The position numbers were made by a program, and so were the translations under genes. 64,000 nucleotides of DNA, from contig QJYK01000129.1 in NCBI GenBank assembly GCA_003248075.1, positions 1 through 64,000 of the forward strand. Reading direction: 5' to 3'. Shown piece by piece: positions 18,282-35,488 of the stretch (the stretch's first letter is position 1; each line of letters begins with the position of its first letter). The notes beneath the pieces are model-generated. The model searched no databases and had not been told where the DNA came from. It saw only the letters and a list, made by a program, of their open reading frames with translations. Origin of the DNA: Gemmatimonadota bacterium (GTDB lineage: Bacteria > Gemmatimonadota > Gemmatimonadetes > Longimicrobiales > Gaopeijiaceae).

Positions 18282-19418
18282 TCACGGATCCGCACCGTCC
18301 ATCAGCTGGAAGACCTGGATGCGGCCGTTGTAGCTGTCGGCCACGAAGATCCGGTTCCGCTGGTCGACCGCGAGCCCGCTGGCCAGCCAGAACGTTCCGA
18401 CCTCGGTGCCGGGGCCGCCGAAGGACATCAGCAGTCGCCCAGCCGCGTCGAAGACGTTCACCACGTCGTAGAGACCCTCGACCACGAACACGTGCCGGCG
18501 CCGGTCGAGTCCGATCCCCTTGGGGCGCGCGAACTGCCCGACGCCGTCTCCGTGGCTCCCGATCGTCATGACCGGGGCTCCGTCCGCGTCGAAGACCTGA
18601 ACGCGGAAGTTCATGGAGTCGCTGACGTAGATCCAACCCTCGCGGTCGACCGCGACGTTGGTCGGGTAGTTCAGGCTTCCGTCCGTTTCGCCCCGTCCGC
18701 CGATGGTGGCGACCACCGCCCCCGCGCTGTCGAAGGAAACGACGCTGTGGAGCTCGGTATCGACCACGTAGATTCGGTTCCGGTCCCCGTCGAATGCGAG
18801 CCCGGAAGGGCGGACCAACCCCTCCAGGCGACCGATCTCGTCCCCGTCCTCGTCCAGATGTAGCACGATCCCGGCGACGGGATCGGAGACGTAGACGGTG
18901 CCGAGCGGGGTCACCGCGACCCCGATGGGTTGCCTGAGCTCATCGTGCCGGAGCCACCGGTGGCGCCCCCGTAGAAGGTCGAAGACATGTACGCCGCGCT
19001 CCGATGAATCGACGACGTAGATCTTCTCGTCCGCGCCGACGGCGATGCCGTGCGGATGGCCGAGTCGGTTGTCGTCACCGCGACCCCGGACGAACGCTAG
19101 GAGGCGGCTCAGGAAGGAACGCCGGAACCCGAGGTCGCGGGGCCCGGAGAAGCTCGCGACGAAGCGGATGCGCGGCGGGTCGGGAGGCGTCGGCCACACC
19201 AGGCTCCGCCCGGGCGGCGTCGTGCTCTCAAGTCGAACGGCACCGGCTCCCGCGCACGCGTCGACGAGCGCCAGCGCGAGGAGGACGAGCGCCAAGCCGA
19301 CAGCTCTCCTGCGGGGTTGTCTGCGCCGGAAGCTCCTCACGGCGAGGCTCCGGAGCGCTTCGGACGGATGGCTCCTCCCCGGCATGGTTCTTGTTTGAAT
19401 GACTGACCGTGACCGCAA
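18282..19418 (-). CDS. NHL-repeat 6-bladed beta-propeller, putative lipoprotein (cassette A)
   Basis: Repeated HGIAVGADEKIYVVDSSERGVHVFD / NVAVDREGWIYVSDSMNFRVQVFD / GIGLDRRRHVFVVEGLYDVVNVFD; start may be internal. Confidence 0.85.
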   Translation of the reverse strand: MRSRSVIQTRTMPGRSHPSEALRSLAVRSFRRRQPRRRAVGLALVLLALALVDACAGAGAVRLESTTPPGRSLVWPTPPDPPRIRFVASFSGPRDLGFRRSFLSRLLAFVRGRGDDNRLGHPHGIAVGADEKIYVVDSSERGVHVFDLLRGRHRWLRHDELRQPIGVAVTPLGTVYVSDPVAGIVLHLDEDGDEIGRLEGLVRPSGLAFDGDRNRIYVVDTELHSVVSFDSAGAVVATIGGRGETDGSLNYPTNVAVDREGWIYVSDSMNFRVQVFDADGAPVMTIGSHGDGVGQFARPKGIGLDRRRHVFVVEGLYDVVNVFDAAGRLLMSFGGPGTEVGTFWLASGLAVDQRNRIFVADSYNGRIQVFQLMDGADP

Positions 19419-19477: not shown

Positions 19478-20581
19478 ATGCAGCCGGGCGTACAAGCGCG
19501 CGACCATGCGCGCACCGCAGGCCTCATCGGTCTCGCGCTTTTGGCGTTGGCCGTGCAGGCGTGCAGCCGCAGGGCGCTCGGAGTGCTGATCGACCTGCCG
19601 CCGCCGCGTGAAGAGAGCGAGCCGGCAGCAACGGGGCCCCAGGGGGGCGCGCCGCAGGGGGACGGGGCCGGAGCGGGGGTGGCGGTAATCCCCGGGGGCA
19701 TGCTGGCGGAGAGCATGCTGACGGTGGAGGACACCGTCGTCCCGGAGATCGAGAAGACGCTGCGGCCGGACTCTGTGCTGAAGCTGCTTCCGAGGGACCG
19801 TGCGGGGAACGTGGACTGGGTGGCGGCGCTGCGCGACGAGGTGATCCGGCCCCGGGACGGGATCGGAGGGCGTCGGAGCCGACGGGCGGCCGCGTTCGAG
19901 TTCAAGTTCGATTTCTACTTCGCGGGCGCGAACGAGATGTTCGACGCGTACTTCCCGCACTCGACGCACACGGAGATGATGGACTGCGCTCAGTGTCACC
20001 CGCGGATCTTCAGGACGCGAGGGGCGGAGATCACGATGGCCGACGTGCTGCAGGGTCGATACTGCGGGGAGTGCCACGGGAAGGTGGCGTTCAACCCGAC
20101 GACGGCGTGCGAACGTTGCCACACGGGCATGGCGATGCCGCCGGACCGGGCGCAGGCGGAGCTGACGGGGACAGTGGAAATGCGTCGGGCGAGCGAGATC
20201 CGCGCGGAGCGCGGGGACACGACGGGTGTGGTGGAGGGGAACGCGACGGGGGTGCTGACGGCGTCGTTTCCGCGAGCGCGGTTCCCGCACTGGGTGCATC
20301 GCATCCGGTATCGGTGCACGACGTGCCACATGAAACTGTTCGAGCCGCGGGCGGGAACGAACGAGATCACGATGGTCGACATCGAGGAGGGGCGCTCCTG
20401 CGGGGAGTGCCACAACGGTCGTACGGCGTTCCAGGTCTCGATCACCAATTGCGGCCGCTGCCACATCCCTTCGGCCGAGCCGCGGGCCGGCGCGGCCCCG
20501 GGCGGGACCGACGACCCTGAGCGAGCGCTTCCTGCGAAGCATGAGCCGTGGGGTGGATGGGTTCTTTCGGGATTGCGGTAG
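19478..20581 (+). CDS. Six-heme c-type cytochrome (cytochrome c7-like triplets), putative lipoprotein (cassette A)
   Basis: CAQCH, CGECH, CERCH, CTTCH, CGECH, CGRCH; ALAVQACSRR lipobox-like. Confidence 0.9.
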   Translation: MQPGVQARDHARTAGLIGLALLALAVQACSRRALGVLIDLPPPREESEPAATGPQGGAPQGDGAGAGVAVIPGGMLAESMLTVEDTVVPEIEKTLRPDSVLKLLPRDRAGNVDWVAALRDEVIRPRDGIGGRRSRRAAAFEFKFDFYFAGANEMFDAYFPHSTHTEMMDCAQCHPRIFRTRGAEITMADVLQGRYCGECHGKVAFNPTTACERCHTGMAMPPDRAQAELTGTVEMRRASEIRAERGDTTGVVEGNATGVLTASFPRARFPHWVHRIRYRCTTCHMKLFEPRAGTNEITMVDIEEGRSCGECHNGRTAFQVSITNCGRCHIPSAEPRAGAAPGGTDDPERALPAKHEPWGGWVLSGLR

Positions 20582-25216: not shown

Positions 25217-25873
25217 ATGACTGAGACGGGGAAGAGAGGTCCGTCGCCGATGGGCGCGCTCGCGATGCTCTGGTTCGCCGTCGCGCTGGTGACGGGCTTC
25301 ATGAGCCCGACCCGGGCCGCTTCGGAGGCGGCACGCATCCTCTACCTGATGGTCCCGATCGGTTGGGTTTCGGTCCTCGGCCTGGTAGCAGTCTTCCTGT
25401 GTTCGGCGGCCTACCTCGGGACCGGAACGGGGACCTGGGACCACGTGGCTCACGCCGCCGCGGAGGTCGCGCTTCTGTTCGCCATCATTGCGGGGATCCA
25501 GAACCTGCTGCTGGAATGGGCCACCTCGGGCGGCTGGGCCGGGCTTGAGGTCCGGGCGGTGAGCTACCTTGTCTTCGCGCTCGCGGCTCTGTCATACCTC
25601 GTCGCTCGTGGCGTGACCAGGGAGCGGAGGAGGGCCCAGCGACTCGCGGCCACGTTCGGCTGCGGAGGCTTCCTCGTGGCCGGGGTCGTATTGGCCTGGT
25701 ACGGCGGACTTCGCAGCCTCCGGCCAAGGGGAGAGACGGCCGCCCTCGAAGAGGTGCCTGCCCTGTCGGTTCTATGGCTGTGTGCGCTGGCCGTCGTGGC
25801 CGTCTTCGTCTGGCTGCTGGGAGAGAGGGTCAATTCCCTCGAGCGAGCCGACGGGGCGAGGCATGTCCGCTGA
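25217..25873 (+). CDS. CcmC/CcsA-like membrane protein lacking conserved His and the WWxWD motif
   Basis: SEAARILYLMVPIGWVSVLGLVAVFLCSAAYL...DHVAHAAAEVALLFAIIAGIQNLLLEW...EVRAVSYLVFALAALSYLVARG aligns by eye with CcmC topology. Confidence 0.65.
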   Translation: MTETGKRGPSPMGALAMLWFAVALVTGFMSPTRAASEAARILYLMVPIGWVSVLGLVAVFLCSAAYLGTGTGTWDHVAHAAAEVALLFAIIAGIQNLLLEWATSGGWAGLEVRAVSYLVFALAALSYLVARGVTRERRRAQRLAATFGCGGFLVAGVVLAWYGGLRSLRPRGETAALEEVPALSVLWLCALAVVAVFVWLLGERVNSLERADGARHVR

Positions 25874-25979
25874 CCCCACGCCGTGGGTGTTGGCGGCGTA
25901 CGCGGTGGCGCTCCTGGGCGTGCTGGCCTACATCACGATCCTCCGCGGGCGACCCCGCGATCGCGAGCCTCCTCGATGA
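25863..25979 (+). CDS. CcmD-like small membrane protein (38 aa)
   Basis: MSADPTPWVLAAYAVALLGVLAYITILRGRPRDREPPR; overlaps the end of the CcmC-like gene. Confidence 0.55.
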   Translation: MSADPTPWVLAAYAVALLGVLAYITILRGRPRDREPPR

Positions 25980-26034: not shown

Positions 26035-28323
26035 GTGAATCTCAACAAGATCGTCCCCCGACTCCGCATTCGGTGGAAACTCGCCATCGCCTTCGTGGCG
26101 CTGGCGGGGATCCCCCTGCTCATCGTCGGAGCCGTGGGTACCTCTTCCGCTTTGTCGGAGTTGAGGCGTAACGCAAGGGGGGAGCTGCAGCAAGACCTCG
26201 ACCTGGCGGCCTCCCGCTCGGGCCGGTCGCTCGCCGAGGTGGGTGCGCACGTCTCCTTCCTCGAGCAGGTGGGGCTTGCACGACTGGCATCGGTGGAGGG
26301 GCCCGCGAGGGAGCGGCTTCTGGGTCTGGCGGGCACGTACCTCGACAGCGATTCGTCCGCGCTTCTCCGGGTCAAGGTTCTTGACGCGGACGGCTTCGTG
26401 ACGGCGGTCGCGGAGCGGGCACGCGGGGGCTCCCTCGGGAGCCGAGAGGGCGAGGGCCCGGCGCTCCTCTACCTGTGGACGGCCGAGCGGCTCGCTCCCG
26501 GAGAGGCGGCCTTTCTCCCGGTCGATCTCTCCAGGAGCGACCGTGGGGACTCGGTGCATGTCGTTCCCGCACTCGCAGTGGTGCGCCCGTTCTGGGAAGG
26601 AGGCAGGCTCGAAGGGGTTCTGGTCGGCGAGGCGGATGCGGCCGAGCTCTTCCGAGGGCTCGACGAGGGGCGTCCCGGCCTCGACGGCGTGACGGGGCTG
26701 GTGAACGAGTCGGGCGACTTCCTCTACCATTCCCGTCTCAAGTCCGACTGGAGGAGCCTGCTGAACACCGAGGCGGTGAACCTCGAGCGCGAGTTCACGC
26801 CAGACGTTGCGCGCAAGATCCTCGCAGGCGCGCGGTCCCTGGAGGCTCCTGGAGGGGTGGAGGTCGCAGCCAGACCCCTGTCGATACCCGGCCAGACGAG
26901 CATGCGGCTGATCCTCTACCGAACCGTACCTCTGCGCGTCCTTTACACAAGGGTGGCGGGGTTCCTGGGGGTGCTCTCCCTCATCGGCGTGCTTCTCGTC
27001 GTCACGGTCGCAGGCCTGTCGATGGTGGCAGCGGCCCAGATCACGCAGCCGGTGCTGCGGATCCAGAGGGCGGCGCACCGCATCGCGTCGGGCGGAAGCC
27101 CGGAGCCCGTGTTGGTGGAGACCAACGATGAACTGGAGGAGCTCGCCGACGACTTCAACCGCATGGCCGTCGCGCTCCAGAGGCACCGCACCGACCTCGA
27201 GACGTTGGTGAAGGAGAGGACGCAGGCACTCGAGCGAACTCGGCACGAGCTGGAGCAGTTCGTAGCGGCCTCCGCGGACGCGATCGTTGGGCTCGACGCG
27301 CATGGTCGCGTCCTTCTCTGGAACCGGGGCGCGCAGACCCTGTTCGGCTACACGGAGCAGGAGGTGGTCGGTCAGCCGCTCGAGCGCATGATCGGTCCTC
27401 CCGAGGCCCCCAACCCGGCAGAGGCGGCGTTCATCCGGTGCGCGATCGAAGCGACCGGCTCGGTGGTGAACTATCGGACCCGCCGCAGGGCGAAGGACGG
27501 GACAGACATTCCACTCACGCTCACCAAGACTGCCCTTCGCGACACCGAAGGCCAGGTGTATGGGTATTCGGTGATCCTCCGCGACGACCGCGCCCGGGAG
27601 CTTGCGGAGGAGCAGATGCGGCGCTCGGAGCGCCTGTCCGCGATCAGCGTCATGGCCGCCGGTCTCGCGCACGAGCTCAACAACCCGCTTTCGGTGGTCG
27701 GAAACCGGCTCGAGCTCATGCAGCGGGAGACCATGGTGAGGAACGGAGACCCCCGGCTGCTCAAGGACCTCGATGTCGTCCGCAAGCATGTCGACCGCAT
27801 CGGCGCGATCACGGGCGATCTACTCAGCTTCGCCCGCAACGACTCCGACACCATGGGCGACGTCGACCTACACACGGTGGTCGACCGGACCGTCCGCCTT
27901 CTGCAACGGGTCTTCGTGGCCTCGAACATCGGACTGGTCGTCGAGGAGGAGCCGTCTCTTCCTGCGGCCTTCGGCAACGAGAACATCGTCGAGACGATCC
28001 TCGTGAACCTGTTGCTCAATGCCAGGCAGGCGACGCCGGCTGGAGGGCGGGTCGAGCTCCATACCCGATCCGTGAGCGGCTCGCTTCTGGAGATCGAGGT
28101 TAGGGACACGGGACCCGGCGTCCCTGCGGAGTTGAGGCGCAGGATCTTCGAGCCGTTCTTCACCACGAAGTCCGAGGCCGGTGGCACCGGTCTCGGTCTC
28201 GCCGTCTGCCGCGCGCTGGCTGACCGCCTCGGCGGAAACCTGGAGGTCACCGACTGGGAGGGAGGCGGGGCCAGGTTCGTCCTCGGCCTGGCCCGGGATG
28301 CCCAAGCGAGGATCAGGGCGTGA
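26035..28323 (+). CDS. Membrane sensor histidine kinase (extracytoplasmic sensor-HAMP-PAS-HisKA-HATPase)
   Basis: AAGLAHELNNPLSVV H-box; NLLLNARQATPAGG N-box; DTGPGVPAELRRRIFEPFFTTKSEAGGTGLGLAVCRALA. Confidence 0.93.
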   Translation: MNLNKIVPRLRIRWKLAIAFVALAGIPLLIVGAVGTSSALSELRRNARGELQQDLDLAASRSGRSLAEVGAHVSFLEQVGLARLASVEGPARERLLGLAGTYLDSDSSALLRVKVLDADGFVTAVAERARGGSLGSREGEGPALLYLWTAERLAPGEAAFLPVDLSRSDRGDSVHVVPALAVVRPFWEGGRLEGVLVGEADAAELFRGLDEGRPGLDGVTGLVNESGDFLYHSRLKSDWRSLLNTEAVNLEREFTPDVARKILAGARSLEAPGGVEVAARPLSIPGQTSMRLILYRTVPLRVLYTRVAGFLGVLSLIGVLLVVTVAGLSMVAAAQITQPVLRIQRAAHRIASGGSPEPVLVETNDELEELADDFNRMAVALQRHRTDLETLVKERTQALERTRHELEQFVAASADAIVGLDAHGRVLLWNRGAQTLFGYTEQEVVGQPLERMIGPPEAPNPAEAAFIRCAIEATGSVVNYRTRRRAKDGTDIPLTLTKTALRDTEGQVYGYSVILRDDRARELAEEQMRRSERLSAISVMAAGLAHELNNPLSVVGNRLELMQRETMVRNGDPRLLKDLDVVRKHVDRIGAITGDLLSFARNDSDTMGDVDLHTVVDRTVRLLQRVFVASNIGLVVEEEPSLPAAFGNENIVETILVNLLLNARQATPAGGRVELHTRSVSGSLLEIEVRDTGPGVPAELRRRIFEPFFTTKSEAGGTGLGLAVCRALADRLGGNLEVTDWEGGGARFVLGLARDAQARIRA

Positions 28324-29714
28324 ACAAGAAAGCCAAGATCCTCATCATCGACGATGAGGCGGAGATACTGGACAACCTGGACCGACTCCTGAGCAGCGAG
28401 GGCTACCGGTGCACGACGCTCCAGGAGCCCGTCCGCTTCCGCGAGGTGCGCGCGGACGTCAGGCCGGATGTCCTGATCACGGACCTGCGTATGCCCGGCG
28501 CGGACGGGATGACGATCCTCGCGGCGGCCCGCGCCGATGACCCTGCGCTCCCCGTCATCCTCATCACGGGGTTCGCGACGATCTCGTCCGCCGTGGAGGC
28601 GGTGCAGGAAGGCGGCTTCGACTACCTGTCGAAGCCGTTCACGGCCGAGCAGCTCTTCGTGGCCGTCGATCGGGCCGCCCGGCACCGGAGTCTGTTGGTG
28701 GAGAACCAAACACTCCGTGAGCGCGTGGAGCGGCAGCCGGGCGGCGCGGATATCATCGGTAGCAGCCCCGCGTTCGCTCGGGTCCTCGACCAGGTGCGTC
28801 GCGTGGCCCCGACGGACGCCAACGTCCTGGTCACTGGGGAAAGCGGCACGGGCAAGGAGGTCGTGGCCCGCCTTGTCCACGAACGGAGCCGCCGGTCCGG
28901 CGGACCGTTCATGCCCATCGACTGCGCCTCGATGCCCGAGGGGCTCATGGAGAGCGAGCTGTTCGGGCATCAGAAGGGCGCCTTCACGGGAGCGGTCGCT
29001 CGACGTACGGGACTGCTGAAGGAGGCTCACGGAGGCACCGTGTTCCTGGACGAGATCGGTGACATGACGGTGGCGCTCCAGGTCAAGCTCCTCCGCACGC
29101 TGGAGCAGCGCCGGGTCAGGCCTCTGGGGGGATCGGACTTCGTGGACGTGGACGTCCGGGTCGTCGCCGCCACCAATGCGGACCTGGAGGGGGCGGTCGC
29201 CGCCGGTCGGTTCCGCGAGGACCTCTACTATCGGCTCAACGTGGTGCACCTGCGGCTCCCGAGCCTGAGGGAGCGCACCGACGACCTGCCCCTCCTGGCC
29301 GGGCACTTCCTCAAGGAGGCCGCCCGCGCCGCGGGACGCGACTCGCCGGTGATCTCCCCCGAGGCGTGGGACGCCCTGCAGCGGTTCGCCTGGCCGGGCA
29401 ACATCCGCCAGCTGCGGAACGTCATGCACCGCATGGTGGCGCTCGACGACGACGGTCGCGTGACCGCCGCGGATCTGCCCCAGGAGATCGCCTACGGGAC
29501 GACGCTGGTCAGGGCCAACGGCGAGACGTCCGGACCGATGCCGTTGGACTACCAGCTCGCCAAGGAGCTGGCCAACCAGGAGTTCATGGAAAGGTATCTG
29601 GATCTGCTGCTCGACTCCCACGAGGGCAACGTGTCCCAGGCGGCGAGAAGCGCGGGTGTGAGTCGGCGCACCCTCCACCGTTGGCTGGCCGAGTTCCGGA
29701 GGGGGGGGCAATGA
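28320..29714 (+). CDS. Sigma-54-dependent NtrC-family response regulator
   Basis: REC domain (IIDDEAEILDNLDRLL, LITDLRMPG); GESGTGKEVVA; ESELFGHQKGAFTGA; HTH NVSQAARSAGVSRRTLHRWL; GTGA overlap with kinase. Confidence 0.95.
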   Translation: MNKKAKILIIDDEAEILDNLDRLLSSEGYRCTTLQEPVRFREVRADVRPDVLITDLRMPGADGMTILAAARADDPALPVILITGFATISSAVEAVQEGGFDYLSKPFTAEQLFVAVDRAARHRSLLVENQTLRERVERQPGGADIIGSSPAFARVLDQVRRVAPTDANVLVTGESGTGKEVVARLVHERSRRSGGPFMPIDCASMPEGLMESELFGHQKGAFTGAVARRTGLLKEAHGGTVFLDEIGDMTVALQVKLLRTLEQRRVRPLGGSDFVDVDVRVVAATNADLEGAVAAGRFREDLYYRLNVVHLRLPSLRERTDDLPLLAGHFLKEAARAAGRDSPVISPEAWDALQRFAWPGNIRQLRNVMHRMVALDDDGRVTAADLPQEIAYGTTLVRANGETSGPMPLDYQLAKELANQEFMERYLDLLLDSHEGNVSQAARSAGVSRRTLHRWLAEFRRGGQ

Positions 29715-30349
29715 CGCGACGGGGTGTGCGAGTCGCCCCGCTGGTGGCGACCCTCCTGGCCGTACAGACGGAGCTCGGCGCGCAGACCGGCATCGTCTCG
29801 GGTAGGGTGGGCAACGGCGGCACGCCGCTACCGAGGGCCGCGGTATACCTGGAGCCGCTGGATCAGGAGATCCCGATCCAGCCCATGGGGGGAGAGATCG
29901 ACCAGTCGCATCTGCGCTTCCGGCCCAGCGTTCTGGTGGTGACCCCCGGAACGCCCGTCCGATTCCTGAACAGCGACCCGCTCATGCACAACGTGTTCGG
30001 ACCGGGGATCCGGGGGGGCGACGTGTTCGATCTGGGTACGTACCCGATGGGGGCGCTCGCCACCTGGACCTTCCAGAAGGAAGGGGTGCACGTGGTGCTG
30101 TGCCACATCCACCCGGAGATGGTCGCCTACGTCGTCGTGACCCGTGCGCCGTTCGGCACCGTGACCGGAAGTGACGGGACCTTCACCCTGGAAGCGGTCC
30201 CGCCGGGACGGTACCGCCTCTCCATCTGGCATCCGCGCCGGAGCAGGGACACGATGACGATAGAGGTCACGGTGCCGGAAGGGGGGCTGAGCGGACTGTT
30301 CCTCGTGCTGGAGGACGGCGGCGTGCGGCAGCGGGGGAGGGACTCGTGA
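29711..30349 (+). CDS. Secreted cupredoxin-fold protein with carboxypeptidase-regulatory-like segments
   Basis: PGTPVRFLNSDPLMHNVFGP ... VVLCHIHPEMVAYVVV type-1 Cu ligands; ATGA overlap upstream. Confidence 0.82.
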   Translation: MTRRGVRVAPLVATLLAVQTELGAQTGIVSGRVGNGGTPLPRAAVYLEPLDQEIPIQPMGGEIDQSHLRFRPSVLVVTPGTPVRFLNSDPLMHNVFGPGIRGGDVFDLGTYPMGALATWTFQKEGVHVVLCHIHPEMVAYVVVTRAPFGTVTGSDGTFTLEAVPPGRYRLSIWHPRRSRDTMTIEVTVPEGGLSGLFLVLEDGGVRQRGRDS

Positions 30350-31782
30350 GGGGGGGGCGCCGGAGGGCGGTCACGGCGGTGGCGATTTGGGCTGTCGCGA
30401 CGGGTGCGGCGACCCCGAGCGCGCTTCGGGCGGCTCGGCCCGGGGGCGCCGGCGTCGATGAGCATATCGGCACGCCCATTCCCGCGTTCGCGCGCATGTA
30501 CGGGACGGCGTGCTCCACCTGCCACACCGCGGCGCCCAAGCTCAATGTTCTCGGTGAGGCGTTTCGGCTGAACGGGTACGAGATGCCGGACACGCGGCTC
30601 CTGGAGCGCGCGGACCAGCCGGTGCCTCTCGGCGCCGAGCCGTGGAAGGACGCATGGCCCCGGTCCATCTGGCCCGGTGAGCTCCCCGGGGCCATCCCGA
30701 TGGCACTCCGCGTGCAGAGCGACGTGCTCCTGACCCGGGATGAGCGTGCGCCCTCTTCGGTGACGTACCGGTTTCCCCACGAGATCTATCTCCTCGCCGG
30801 GGGACCGTTGGGTGGGGGCGTCTCCACCTTCCTCGAGGTCGAGTGGAGCGAGGCCTCGGGGATCGAAGTCCAACAGGCCAAGATCGGCTTCCGGGATCTC
30901 GTACCGGAGCTCCCCCAGGAGGCTCTGGGCCTGAACCTGGGGCTCCTCAACCCCTTCCTGTTGACCTTCACGGACCGCCAGATCGACCGGGCTGGCCGGC
31001 AGAAGCTCGCCTGGCAGGACTTCGGGCTCGATCAGGTGGCGGTCCAGCCTGCCGGTGGGGGAGACCCTCTGCGAAGCGACAACGAGACGGTCCTGGGCAC
31101 GGGGGTCGCCGCCGTGGAGCTCCAGGGGCTCGTCGGGGGGCGATTCCACTGGGGAGCGGGGCTCGCCCAGGGGGTCGGTTCCGGCGTCGTGGACCGGAAT
31201 GGGCACAAGGACCCCTACTACCGCGTGCGGGTCAAGCTCGGCGGCCTTGACTACCGTGGCCGGTACGACAGGGATGGGGGGCCGGTTCCCGGCGCCGGGG
31301 GTCAACTCCTCGACCGGTCGGTCACTCTCGAGCACTTCGGCTACTTCGGAAACGAGTCGACGCCGGACGCCCCGACAGGCGGGCACCGCGCGCTGGGCTG
31401 GGCGGCACGAGTCCTGGAGGGACGGCTGGACGCGGGGGTGGGGCACGTGCGGCGGAGCTATCGGAGACCGTTCGGAACGGCCGCGGGCTCGCTCGATGTC
31501 CGCGCCTGGTTCGCGAAGGCCGAGTACCAGCTCTTTCCCTGGCTCATCGGTAGCCTGAAGTACGACAGGCTCCGCATCGACGAGGGAGCGGGGGCGCTCC
31601 CGGTCGGCCACGCACTGGCGCCTGCCGACCGGGACCTCGTGCTCCCAGGGGTGGTGATGCTCGTGCGGCAGAACGTCCGGCTCGTCGTGGAGGGGGAGTT
31701 GCTCCGCGCCGCCGACCGGGCGGTCGAACCGGGTGTGAGGCGGCCGCACGCACTCTGGCTGCGGCTGGACCTGACGTTCTGA
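30346..31782 (+). CDS. Outer-membrane porin-like protein with N-terminal single-heme cytochrome segment
   Basis: ARMYGTACSTCHTAAPKLNVLGEAFRLNGYEMP followed by amphipathic, beta-barrel-like sequence ending ...LWLRLDLTF. Confidence 0.75.
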   Translation: MRGGRRRAVTAVAIWAVATGAATPSALRAARPGGAGVDEHIGTPIPAFARMYGTACSTCHTAAPKLNVLGEAFRLNGYEMPDTRLLERADQPVPLGAEPWKDAWPRSIWPGELPGAIPMALRVQSDVLLTRDERAPSSVTYRFPHEIYLLAGGPLGGGVSTFLEVEWSEASGIEVQQAKIGFRDLVPELPQEALGLNLGLLNPFLLTFTDRQIDRAGRQKLAWQDFGLDQVAVQPAGGGDPLRSDNETVLGTGVAAVELQGLVGGRFHWGAGLAQGVGSGVVDRNGHKDPYYRVRVKLGGLDYRGRYDRDGGPVPGAGGQLLDRSVTLEHFGYFGNESTPDAPTGGHRALGWAARVLEGRLDAGVGHVRRSYRRPFGTAAGSLDVRAWFAKAEYQLFPWLIGSLKYDRLRIDEGAGALPVGHALAPADRDLVLPGVVMLVRQNVRLVVEGELLRAADRAVEPGVRRPHALWLRLDLTF

Positions 31783-34019
31783 CCCGTCGCGCAGTAGTCG
31801 CCACGGTCGCCGTCGCTCTGGCTGCTGCGGCGATCGCCAGGACGACGTCGATATCGAGCGTGTTCACCGAGCAGGGTATCCGCCTGTCCGGCAACGACGC
31901 GTACTACCATGCCCTTCGCGTAGAGCGGACCCTCGAGGGCTATCCGACCGTTCCGAAGAGGGACGCATGGCTCAGTTATCCCGACGGCGCCGACATCCCC
32001 TGGCCCCCTCTCTTCGATGGCGTGGTGGCCGCCATCGGACGAGCGCGGGGTGGCCCGGAGGGCGGGTCGGCAGCGGCGCTCCGCGCCGCGACCTGGATCC
32101 CGGTGTTCGTCGGGGTATCTACGGTCCTCATGGTCGCGGTGCTGGGCAAACTCCTGGCGGCACCTGCTGTGGGGGCGGTCGCCGCCGTGATGCTCGCGCT
32201 ACTGCCCGCGCACGTGACGTTCTCTGGCGTCGGCGATTTCGACCACCACGGGGCCGAGGTGCTGCTGCTCGTGGCGGCGCTGACGGGCCTCGCTGCGTTG
32301 CCGGGAGCCGGCCCGGCGTCGCGCCGCGCCCGAGCCTCCGAGGTCATGATGGCCGCGGCTCTCGCAGCGTCCTTCCTCGTGTGGCACGGGAGCGTGCTCC
32401 ATGTCGCGATCGTTGCCGGAGGCTTCGCCGCCTCGTGGATGACGATGTCCGGCGACCCGGAGGGTAGGACGCGGCTCGCCGCCTCGCTGGCCCGGGCTAG
32501 CCTCTTGGCGGCGGGCCTTCTCGCGCTCGGGGTCGGGCTTCTCGTGTCGCCGCTGGCGCTGACCCGGTTCTCGCTCGTCGGTGCCACCGGCTTCCACGTG
32601 GTCGGGCTCCTCCTGCTCGGTGGCTTCGCGGCCGCCCTCGCCGTTCCGATCCGGGGCGACTCCGGGGCGTGGGCCAGGCCCCTTTGGGCGGCCGCGGCCT
32701 GCCTCGCGCTCGGGTTGATGGTCCCGGCCTTCAGGGACCCGGTGGCGCACGGCCTAACCGCCCTGACCGCGGGCTCGCCATGGCATCGGAACATCCAGGA
32801 GTTCGATCCGCTCCTCTTCGCGGGTTATTCGCCCCTGCGCCGCGAGCTGCGCACCGCCCTGGATCTGACCGGGCTGGGGTTGCCGCTCGCGCCATTGTCG
32901 ATGTGGTGGATGATCCGTTGCTGGCCGGATGATCCGCGACAGCGGGCCGGCGCGGCCGGCATCCTGTGGTTGGGTTTGGCCCTGATCCCGCTCGCGGTCG
33001 CGCGCAAGCGGTTCCTGGTGTACGCGGCGGTGCCGCTGTCGCTTTGGGCGGCCGCCCTCGTGGTCGGTGCCGCGAGGAGGGTGGCTCGCCGGCACGGATC
33101 GATACTGGGTGGGGCCAGCGCTTTGGTCCTCACCCTCGTCGTCCTGTCCCCCACCTTGGGGTGGCACCGGCGAGAGCGCGGCGCTTCGGGCGGCTCGGCG
33201 GAGCGGGAGGCGCTGATCGAAGCGCTGGAGTGGCTCCGGGCGCGCGCACCCTCGCGCCCCGGGAGCCCTGCCGTGTTCGCGGAGTGGGACTTCGGACACC
33301 TCATACAGTACTTCGCGCGAAAGCCGGTTTTGGTCTCGCCGTTCGGAACCGATGTCGGCGACGGGCCGATGGCGGATTTCGCGAGGGCGTTCCTCGCGAC
33401 ACATGCCGACACGTTCGACGCCGTGCTCGAGCGGCGCCGGGTCGGCTTCGTGGTGCTCTCCAACCCCGTCACGGAGGCGCACTTCGCTCGGGGGTACCTC
33501 CCGCCCGAGGCGCCGGAGGTCGTGACGGCGACGCGTGACTGGCGGACCGGGCTGAGGGTGCGCGTGAACCCGCCCTTCTGGGAGATCGCATCGTCCCGGC
33601 TGTATTTCGATGACGGGACGGGGCGCGGGGGCGGGGAGGCAGCCATCCCGGGGCTCCGGCTCGTCTTCGAGTCCAGGCGAACCACGACATGGCAGGGGAG
33701 GTTGGCGTCGGCCTTCAAGGTCTTCGAGCGCGTGGCCGGGGCGCGGCTGGAGGTCCGCTCCGCCCCTGGCGAGCTCGTACGCGCGGAGACGCTCCTCTTG
33801 ACCGACTCGGGGCGCCGGGTCCGGTGGGCCACGGAGAGCCTGGCCGACCCCGAGGGTCGAGCCGAGCTGAGCCTGCCGTATGCCACGGGCGTGAACGGAA
33901 CCGTGTGGTCGGTCCCTTACCGCGTCACGGCCGGATCCCGGGCTGCGGAGCTACGGGTCACCGAGGCCGAGGTAACGGCCAGCCGGGCGCTTCGGGTAAT
34001 GCTCCCTCCGGGAGGATAG
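31779..34019 (+). CDS. STT3/AglB-like oligosaccharyltransferase catalytic subunit; probable CTG start at 31779 (ORF track starts at GTG 31860)
   Basis: IRLSGNDAYYHALRVERTLEGYPTVPKRDAWLSYPDGADIPWPPLFD; GDFDHHGAEVLLL; VFAEWDFGHLIQYFARKPVLVSPFGTD; extension to 31779 adds an N-terminal TM helix. Confidence 0.82.
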   Translation: MTRRAVVATVAVALAAAAIARTTSISSVFTEQGIRLSGNDAYYHALRVERTLEGYPTVPKRDAWLSYPDGADIPWPPLFDGVVAAIGRARGGPEGGSAAALRAATWIPVFVGVSTVLMVAVLGKLLAAPAVGAVAAVMLALLPAHVTFSGVGDFDHHGAEVLLLVAALTGLAALPGAGPASRRARASEVMMAAALAASFLVWHGSVLHVAIVAGGFAASWMTMSGDPEGRTRLAASLARASLLAAGLLALGVGLLVSPLALTRFSLVGATGFHVVGLLLLGGFAAALAVPIRGDSGAWARPLWAAAACLALGLMVPAFRDPVAHGLTALTAGSPWHRNIQEFDPLLFAGYSPLRRELRTALDLTGLGLPLAPLSMWWMIRCWPDDPRQRAGAAGILWLGLALIPLAVARKRFLVYAAVPLSLWAAALVVGAARRVARRHGSILGGASALVLTLVVLSPTLGWHRRERGASGGSAEREALIEALEWLRARAPSRPGSPAVFAEWDFGHLIQYFARKPVLVSPFGTDVGDGPMADFARAFLATHADTFDAVLERRRVGFVVLSNPVTEAHFARGYLPPEAPEVVTATRDWRTGLRVRVNPPFWEIASSRLYFDDGTGRGGGEAAIPGLRLVFESRRTTTWQGRLASAFKVFERVAGARLEVRSAPGELVRAETLLLTDSGRRVRWATESLADPEGRAELSLPYATGVNGTVWSVPYRVTAGSRAAELRVTEAEVTASRALRVMLPPGG

Positions 34020-34252: not shown

Positions 34253-35488
34253 ATGAGCGCTCGGCGGATGGCTCTCGCCCTGACTCTCGGCTGCGCGTGG
34301 CCTGCGGCGGCGGAGGCACAGCGCGCCGCCACGAGGGAGATCGTGTGGCCGGACCCGCCGGCGCCCACACGCATCCGCTACGTGGGGGAGCTGCGCAGCG
34401 AGGAGGACATCGGCCGGAAGGCCGGTTTCCTTTCGAGGATGAAAGGGAAGCTCGCCGGGACGGGAGGGGCGTCCTACCTGTCGGTCAGCCGCCCGCACGA
34501 CATTCACGTGGTGGACGGGAACCGCTTCTTCGTGTCCGACGGTGGCATTGGCAAGATCGTCCTCTTCGACGCCGAGGCGAAGTCGGCGAAGGTCATCGGA
34601 GAGTCCGGCGAGGGACGGCTGTACAAGCCGATGGGTGTGGGCGGGGACGGGTCGGGAACCGTGTACGTGGCCGACGCCACGGGTGATCGCGTGGTCGCCT
34701 TCGACCGGGAAGGGGAGTTCGTCCGCTTCTACGGAGGGAAGAGCATGCTCCTGAACCCCGTGGACGTGGCGGTCGACCCGGCGCGCGACCGGCTGTTTGT
34801 CGTGGACAGCTACCTGCACCAGGTCGTGGTCTTCTCGATCGCCACCGGCGAGATCGTCGGACGCCTGGGCCGTGACGAGGGTGACCTCGCGCGCAAACAG
34901 GCGCTCTACGCGGGGGTGTGGAGCGGGGGCGCGCACGGCGCGGGGGAGCCCGATGACAAGGACCCGAACCCTCCCCTTCCCGACTCGCTGAGCGAGGAAG
35001 TGTACCTTTCACGCGAGCCCAGGGACCTGGTGGCCAACCGGGGGGTTGAGGACGGCGAGTTCCGTTATCCGGCCTTCCTGGCGGTCGCGCCCGACGGGAC
35101 GCTGTATGTGTCGGACCAGATGAACTTCCGCATCCAGGCCTTCGACGCAGACCTCAACTTCCTCAGGAAGATCGGCGGGCAGGGGGTCGTTCCCGGCGCC
35201 TTCGCGCGCCCGAAGGGCGTGGCGGTGGACAGGCAGGGACACTTGTACGTGGCCGACTCGGCCTTCAACAACGTACAGATCTTCGACACCGACGGGCGGC
35301 TGCTCCTGCACTTCGCGGACGGCGGCACGGACGAAGGGGAGATCTTCCTCCCCCTCGGGATCGAGATCGACGAGGCAAACCGGATCTACATCGCCGACCG
35401 CTACAACAACCGCATCCAGATCTTCGACTTCATCCCCGTGCGCAACGGCGAATACGAGGTCGGGGAGAACCGCGCGTCAGGCTCCTGA
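34253..35488 (+). CDS. NHL-repeat 6-bladed beta-propeller, secreted (cassette B)
   Basis: REIVWPDPPAPTRIRYVGEL (cf. cassette A WPTPPDPPRIRFVASF); repeated GVAVDRQGHLYVADSAFNNVQIFD / GIEIDEANRIYIADRYNNRIQIFD. Confidence 0.9.
   Translation: MSARRMALALTLGCAWPAAAEAQRAATREIVWPDPPAPTRIRYVGELRSEEDIGRKAGFLSRMKGKLAGTGGASYLSVSRPHDIHVVDGNRFFVSDGGIGKIVLFDAEAKSAKVIGESGEGRLYKPMGVGGDGSGTVYVADATGDRVVAFDREGEFVRFYGGKSMLLNPVDVAVDPARDRLFVVDSYLHQVVVFSIATGEIVGRLGRDEGDLARKQALYAGVWSGGAHGAGEPDDKDPNPPLPDSLSEEVYLSREPRDLVANRGVEDGEFRYPAFLAVAPDGTLYVSDQMNFRIQAFDADLNFLRKIGGQGVVPGAFARPKGVAVDRQGHLYVADSAFNNVQIFDTDGRLLLHFADGGTDEGEIFLPLGIEIDEANRIYIADRYNNRIQIFDFIPVRNGEYEVGENRASGS

Follow-up and report, generated by a model that had tools for sequence, protein, structure and literature searches.

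Can a protein with the predicted fold of CcmC that has lost most of the residues with which CcmC handles haem still act as a CcmC, and if not, why is it kept? The question arises at a locus of a Gemmatimonadota bacterium (contig QJYK01000129.1, positions 1 to 64,000); the whole stretch of 64,000 nucleotides that was analyzed is called the window here. CcmC and CcmD form a membrane protein pair whose usual task is to deliver haem to cytochromes. A preliminary description, made from the sequence alone, had proposed a CcmC-like protein without heme-handling residues that is paired with a CcmD-like peptide in a cytochrome locus. The features of the locus are collected in Table 1.

Table 1. Coordinates of the ccmCD-like pair, its altered haem-site positions and the adjoining genes in the window
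Feature	Position	Strand	Remarks
CcmC-like gene	25217..25873	+	218 aa; six-helix CcmC fold predicted; haem site lost
Met45	25349..25351	+	replaces P-His1 (E. coli CcmC H60); His invariant in 27 aligned relatives
SGGWAGLEVR, residues 104-113	25526..25555	+	replaces WWD motif WGTWWVWDAR; gapless alignment
Arg169	25721..25723	+	replaces P-His2 (E. coli CcmC H184); LRSLRP versus FRSLHP in relatives
CcmD-like gene	25863..25979	+	38 aa; ATG 25863, TGA 25977-25979; matched by profile of relatives' CcmD
HAMP-PAS histidine kinase	26035..28323	+	Pfam; 55 nt downstream of CcmD-like gene, same presumed operon
Sigma-54-activating NtrC-type response regulator	28320..29714	+	Pfam; beside kinase in relatives too
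Exported cupredoxin-like/carboxypeptidase-regulatory-domain protein	29711..30349	+	weak Pfam copper-binding and CarboxypepD_reg; order conserved in G131, G057, G039
CxxCH-containing, probably porin-like outer membrane protein	30346..31782	+	YGTACSTCH; after regulators in G131, G057

Frame, homology and predicted fold of the CcmC-like protein

The CcmC-like gene has an intact frame of 218 codons from the ATG at 25217 to the TGA at 25871-25873 and is preceded by a purine-rich GAGGCAGAGG stretch. Its GC content by codon position (0.69/0.54/0.83) is like that of the neighboring genes. An open frame of this length occurs in 1% of mononucleotide shuffles and in 5.6% of the shuffles that keep the codon-position composition.

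The sole meaningful family match is the NCBIfam ccmC model TIGR01191 at 2.7e-6 and 27.5 bits, far below the cut-off of 186 bits; Pfam, PF01578 included, gave no match. When 27 canonical CcmC proteins of related genomes are combined into a profile, it matches residues 6-206 with 89 bits and an E-value of 6.5e-26. The alignment with the CcmC of relatives is near-gapless, colinear, and in frame on both sides of the Trp motif, and the offset to the E. coli numbering is a constant 15 at every residue checked. The near-gapless alignment, the profile match, and the constant offset together identify the window protein as a CcmC homologue—a well-supported assignment and the one made in the preliminary description.

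The AlphaFold2 model features a pLDDT of 86.9 and a pTM of 0.85. Its PDB matches at E < 0.001 are the CcmC subunits of E. coli CcmABCD alone (8ce1_C and 7f02_C), with a TM of 0.78 and E = 7.8e-8 for 8ce1_C. The model indicates fold compatibility and is not independent proof, since its input alignment of 29 relatives consists mostly of canonical CcmC. In the tree, the branch of the CcmC-like protein amounts to 6.36 changes per column (median 0.28) and is too long for the protein to be placed.

Residues of the haem face

Relative to E. coli CcmC, the Trp positions read W114 to L99, W119 to S104, W122 to W107, W123 to A108, and W125 to L110, so that W122 (Trp107) is the only one of the five retained. 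The non-Trp positions read H60 to M45, G120 to G105, D126 to E111, R128 to R113, and H184 to R169. The His-to-Met change at P-His1 (H60, now Met45) had been recognized correctly, and so had the general absence of heme-handling residues, which extends to P-His2 (Arg169) and four of the five Trp. That the Trp-rich motif is gone was right for most of it: what remains of the WWD stretch is a Gly, one Trp, the acid, and the Arg only, and SGGWAGLEVR does not fit the pattern WGxWWxW(D/E)xR. The His residues of the protein are at positions 76, 79, and 216 only, none of them within the haem-face stretches. None of the other reading frames of the gene restores the Trp motif.

Conserved columns were defined as those shared by at least 90% of the canonical relatives (n = 40). 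The CcmC-like protein retains 19 of the 40 and every canonical member 35-40. The changes affect 18 of 26 columns in three haem-face stretches and 3 of the 14 columns outside them (Fisher p = 0.007, for stretches that are literature-based and were drawn after the alignment had been seen). The scaffold positions Y43, P47, W50, D75, A82, R113, Y127, R131, and R166 are retained. Among the mapped channel residues, the A97 and R152 positions are identical, and M68V, I143L, L145A, V163G, L170A, and L227D are altered.

In E. coli CcmC, the variants H60A and H184A yield no holoCcmE and no cytochrome c, and replacement of R128 by Ala, Asp, or Lys has graded effects, with 31% for R128A and 0% for R128D (PMC9616876). 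The WWD domain is highly conserved in all of 44 organisms compared (PMC12077264). CcmCD transports haem without requiring those candidate axial ligands in the transmembrane region that were tested (PMC13141917). Because H60A and H184A abolish holoCcmE in E. coli, the known reaction of CcmC should be impossible in the CcmC-like protein, and we strongly infer that its known chemistry, the formation of holoCcmE, would be lost.

The CcmD-like partner

The 38-residue CcmD-like peptide of the preliminary description is confirmed: its gene overlaps the 3' end of the CcmC-like gene by 11 nt. Against a profile built on 17 CcmD peptides of relatives, it ranks first of 408 short open reading frames of the window with E = 1.2e-4, the next being at 0.08, and its AAYA motif is aligned with the AAYA of these peptides. 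Pfam and NCBIfam give no match for the peptide, whereas the CcmD of relatives do match. The overlap resembles the ccmC-ccmD junction of relatives from one family (f2), which hints at a pair descended or acquired from an f2-like ccmCD. In the window's own family, unlike in the window, ccmD usually lies downstream of ccmC.

The standard ccm operon of the same genome

A canonical CcmC elsewhere in the genome, which the preliminary description had suggested looking for, is encoded on contig C151 in a standard operon of ccmE, ccmF, a short gene, ccmA, ccmB, and ccmC (ccmE-F-x-A-B-C). About the first 67 codons of this ccmC, with the canonical start YIHVPSAW, are present before the contig end interrupts it; the remainder was not found in the genome's assembly, and the gene is presumed to be complete. 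A genome of the same genus (G001) carries a complete canonical CcmC with WGTYWTWE. The genome has one CcmB above cut-off, on C151. The CcmC-like gene is not located with ccmA, ccmB, or ccmE; its neighbors are the kinase, the regulator, and cytochromes. With the standard operon elsewhere, the window pair is a divergent second ccmCD pair, and its reading as a spare copy rather than as a divergent sole CcmC is supported.

The CcmE of this genome (L004, 8235-8690, on C151) has a Cys at the position of the His that would bind haem, within CGSRY, a CxxxY motif. We take this Cys-type CcmE to be the variant type of archaea and some sulfate reducers.

Neighboring genes

The pair heads a tightly packed presumed operon in a multihaem-cytochrome locus, in which the kinase, regulator, cupredoxin-like, and porin-like genes follow with successive 4-nt overlaps. 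Pfam gives no match for the porin-like product. Genes of c7-type and diheme cytochromes lie upstream of the CcmC-like gene; an STT3/AglB-type glycosyltransferase, an NHL protein, and multihaem cytochromes are encoded after the porin-like gene. The cytochrome setting claimed earlier is supported. A sigma-54 promoter was not found upstream of 25217 at up to one mismatch.

Of 150 genomes of the order, six besides the window's own carry orthologues of the kinase. No ccmCD pair was found upstream of those in G057, G007, G102, and G039, nor in 305 bp of G131. An ABC-2 transporter upstream of the G007 kinase was considered as CcmAB and rejected by Pfam. The kinase–regulator–cupredoxin–porin module thus recurs in relatives without ccmCD ahead of it, where upstream sequence is available; the pair is therefore not essential to the module and is a lineage-specific addition heading a conserved one.

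Further genes of the window deserve mention. The STT3/AglB-type oligosaccharyltransferase-like gene (31860-34019; AglB_L1 1.3e-13) is situated within the multihaem cytochrome locus, and its product possibly glycosylates surface cytochromes. NHL-propeller genes (18282-19418 and 34253-35488) flank the locus beside multihaem cytochromes. The protein encoded at 19478-20581 features two c7-type triheme domains (TIGR04257 nanowire_3heme, 9.9e-40) and was found in 1 of 59 genomes searched, the window's own genome aside. Contig C648 of genome G003 has an arrangement similar to that of the window locus, with NHL, cytochromes, and a barrel.

Search for orthologues

CcmC was searched for in four overlapping samples: 59 relatives, and, with a threshold of E <= 1e-12 or 1e-13, 154 genomes from the order, 395 from the phylum, and 394 from the class. 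No motif-less orthologue was found in the order, phylum, and class samples; all CcmC-type matches examined for the motif in the four samples are canonical, the best having 32% identity. Two genomes of the order, G048 and G057 (loci L045 and L046), contain a second CcmC-like match; that of G048 is canonical, with WGAWWVWD. The related locus on the 7.8-kb contig C648 carries cytochrome and NHL genes and no ccmC-like gene. No close relatives of the pair were found in viral contigs and plasmids.

Distant orthologues may exist, since the whole-collection contig scans depend on exact short peptide matches. The sole match of the genome-contig scan, a 46-residue Hymenobacter match, was dropped, as BLAST against that locus found nothing. 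The pair is known from a single genome so far, which limits the weight of the finding; it could be an oddity of one lineage.

Possible roles of the pair

The explanation that we rank first, at about an even chance, is a diverged second ccmC-ccmD copy that survives as a non-catalytic membrane accessory and is made together with the adjacent kinase and regulator. Such a copy, strongly diverged and present besides the standard Ccm (System I) operon, retains the predicted six-helix scaffold and the CcmD partner; with both P-His and most of the WWD platform lost, it should be unable to load haem onto CcmE. It might regulate the adjacent signaling module or modulate the Ccm complex while multihaem cytochromes are made; we infer both the role and the partner. 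Selection for a non-haem role is favored by a frame that is open despite enormous divergence and by the preferential retention of scaffold columns. The preliminary description spoke of a repurposed CcmC/CcmD module. Its identity and the loss of the haem site stand, and the new function is deduced; "repurposed" is plausible because the frame is intact despite the extreme divergence, the haem face bears most of the losses, and an operon begins with the pair. A less likely possibility is that the pair is a pseudo-haem-transporter, that is, a membrane partner or sensor, without haem handling, for a kinase and regulator that control multihaem cytochrome and porin genes.

Against the accessory stands a ccmCD pair that arose by duplication or was acquired, is under relaxed selection and heading for loss, and has no present function. 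The missing orthologues in the order, phylum, and class samples, the extremely long branch, the loss of most haem-face residues, and the standard ccm copy would all fit such decay; the open frame with its coding-like GC pattern, the low share of open shuffles under both schemes, the preserved CcmD partner, overlap, and helices, and the preference for scaffold columns speak against it and make it somewhat unlikely. A variant that still handles haem or another porphyrin through the scaffold, with ligands such as Met45 and with Arg113 and Glu111 close to the edge of the haem, and that serves the local cytochromes without CcmE, is a weaker alternative to the membrane accessory and unlikely. Met is able to ligate haem, the R128 and D126 acid positions are retained (R128 matters in E. 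coli; PMC9616876), the transport by CcmCD does not depend on the transmembrane ligands tested (PMC13141917), and two channel positions are identical; however, both P-His and all but one of the five Trp are lost, the three remaining His lie elsewhere, and the other mapped channel positions are changed. A sequencing or frame artefact or an unrelated membrane family is extremely improbable. The silence of Pfam and the TIGR01191 score below cut-off would be expected of it, but the gapless in-frame alignment flanking the motif, the profile match, the fold match to CcmC alone, and the frame check refute it in practice. Neither another membrane family nor a frame correction that brings back the Trp motif, both raised in the preliminary description, was found.

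Comparison with known systems

A natural CcmC/CcmD pair with neither P-His and with one WWD-region Trp would be a test case for separating the haem-handling parts from those for assembly with CcmD, CcmB, and CcmE. It would also suggest that parts of Ccm can take on other roles in electron-transfer loci.

The CcmC-like protein shares with the System I CcmC (heme exporter protein C, TIGR01191/PF01578) the length, fold, colinearity, scaffold residues, and CcmD partner. It differs by the absence of P-His1, P-His2, and four of the five WWD-region Trp; its gene lies outside any ccm operon, is a second copy, and scores below the curated cut-offs. The CcmD-like peptide resembles CcmD and CcmD_alt (PF04995, TIGR03141, TIGR04391) in its single helix, its AAYA, and its overlap with the ccmC stop, as in family f2, at 38 aa; compared with the CcmD of relatives, it lacks the Trp after AAYA and much of the basic tail. 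CcsA/CcsBA and CcmF, the other members of the WWD/P-His family, have the WWD/P-His core region in common with CcmC generally. They are much larger, and the haem motif that they share is missing from the window protein; the CcmC-family profile matches CcsBA (7s9y) at E = 0.0015, far more weakly than CcmC at 2e-43.
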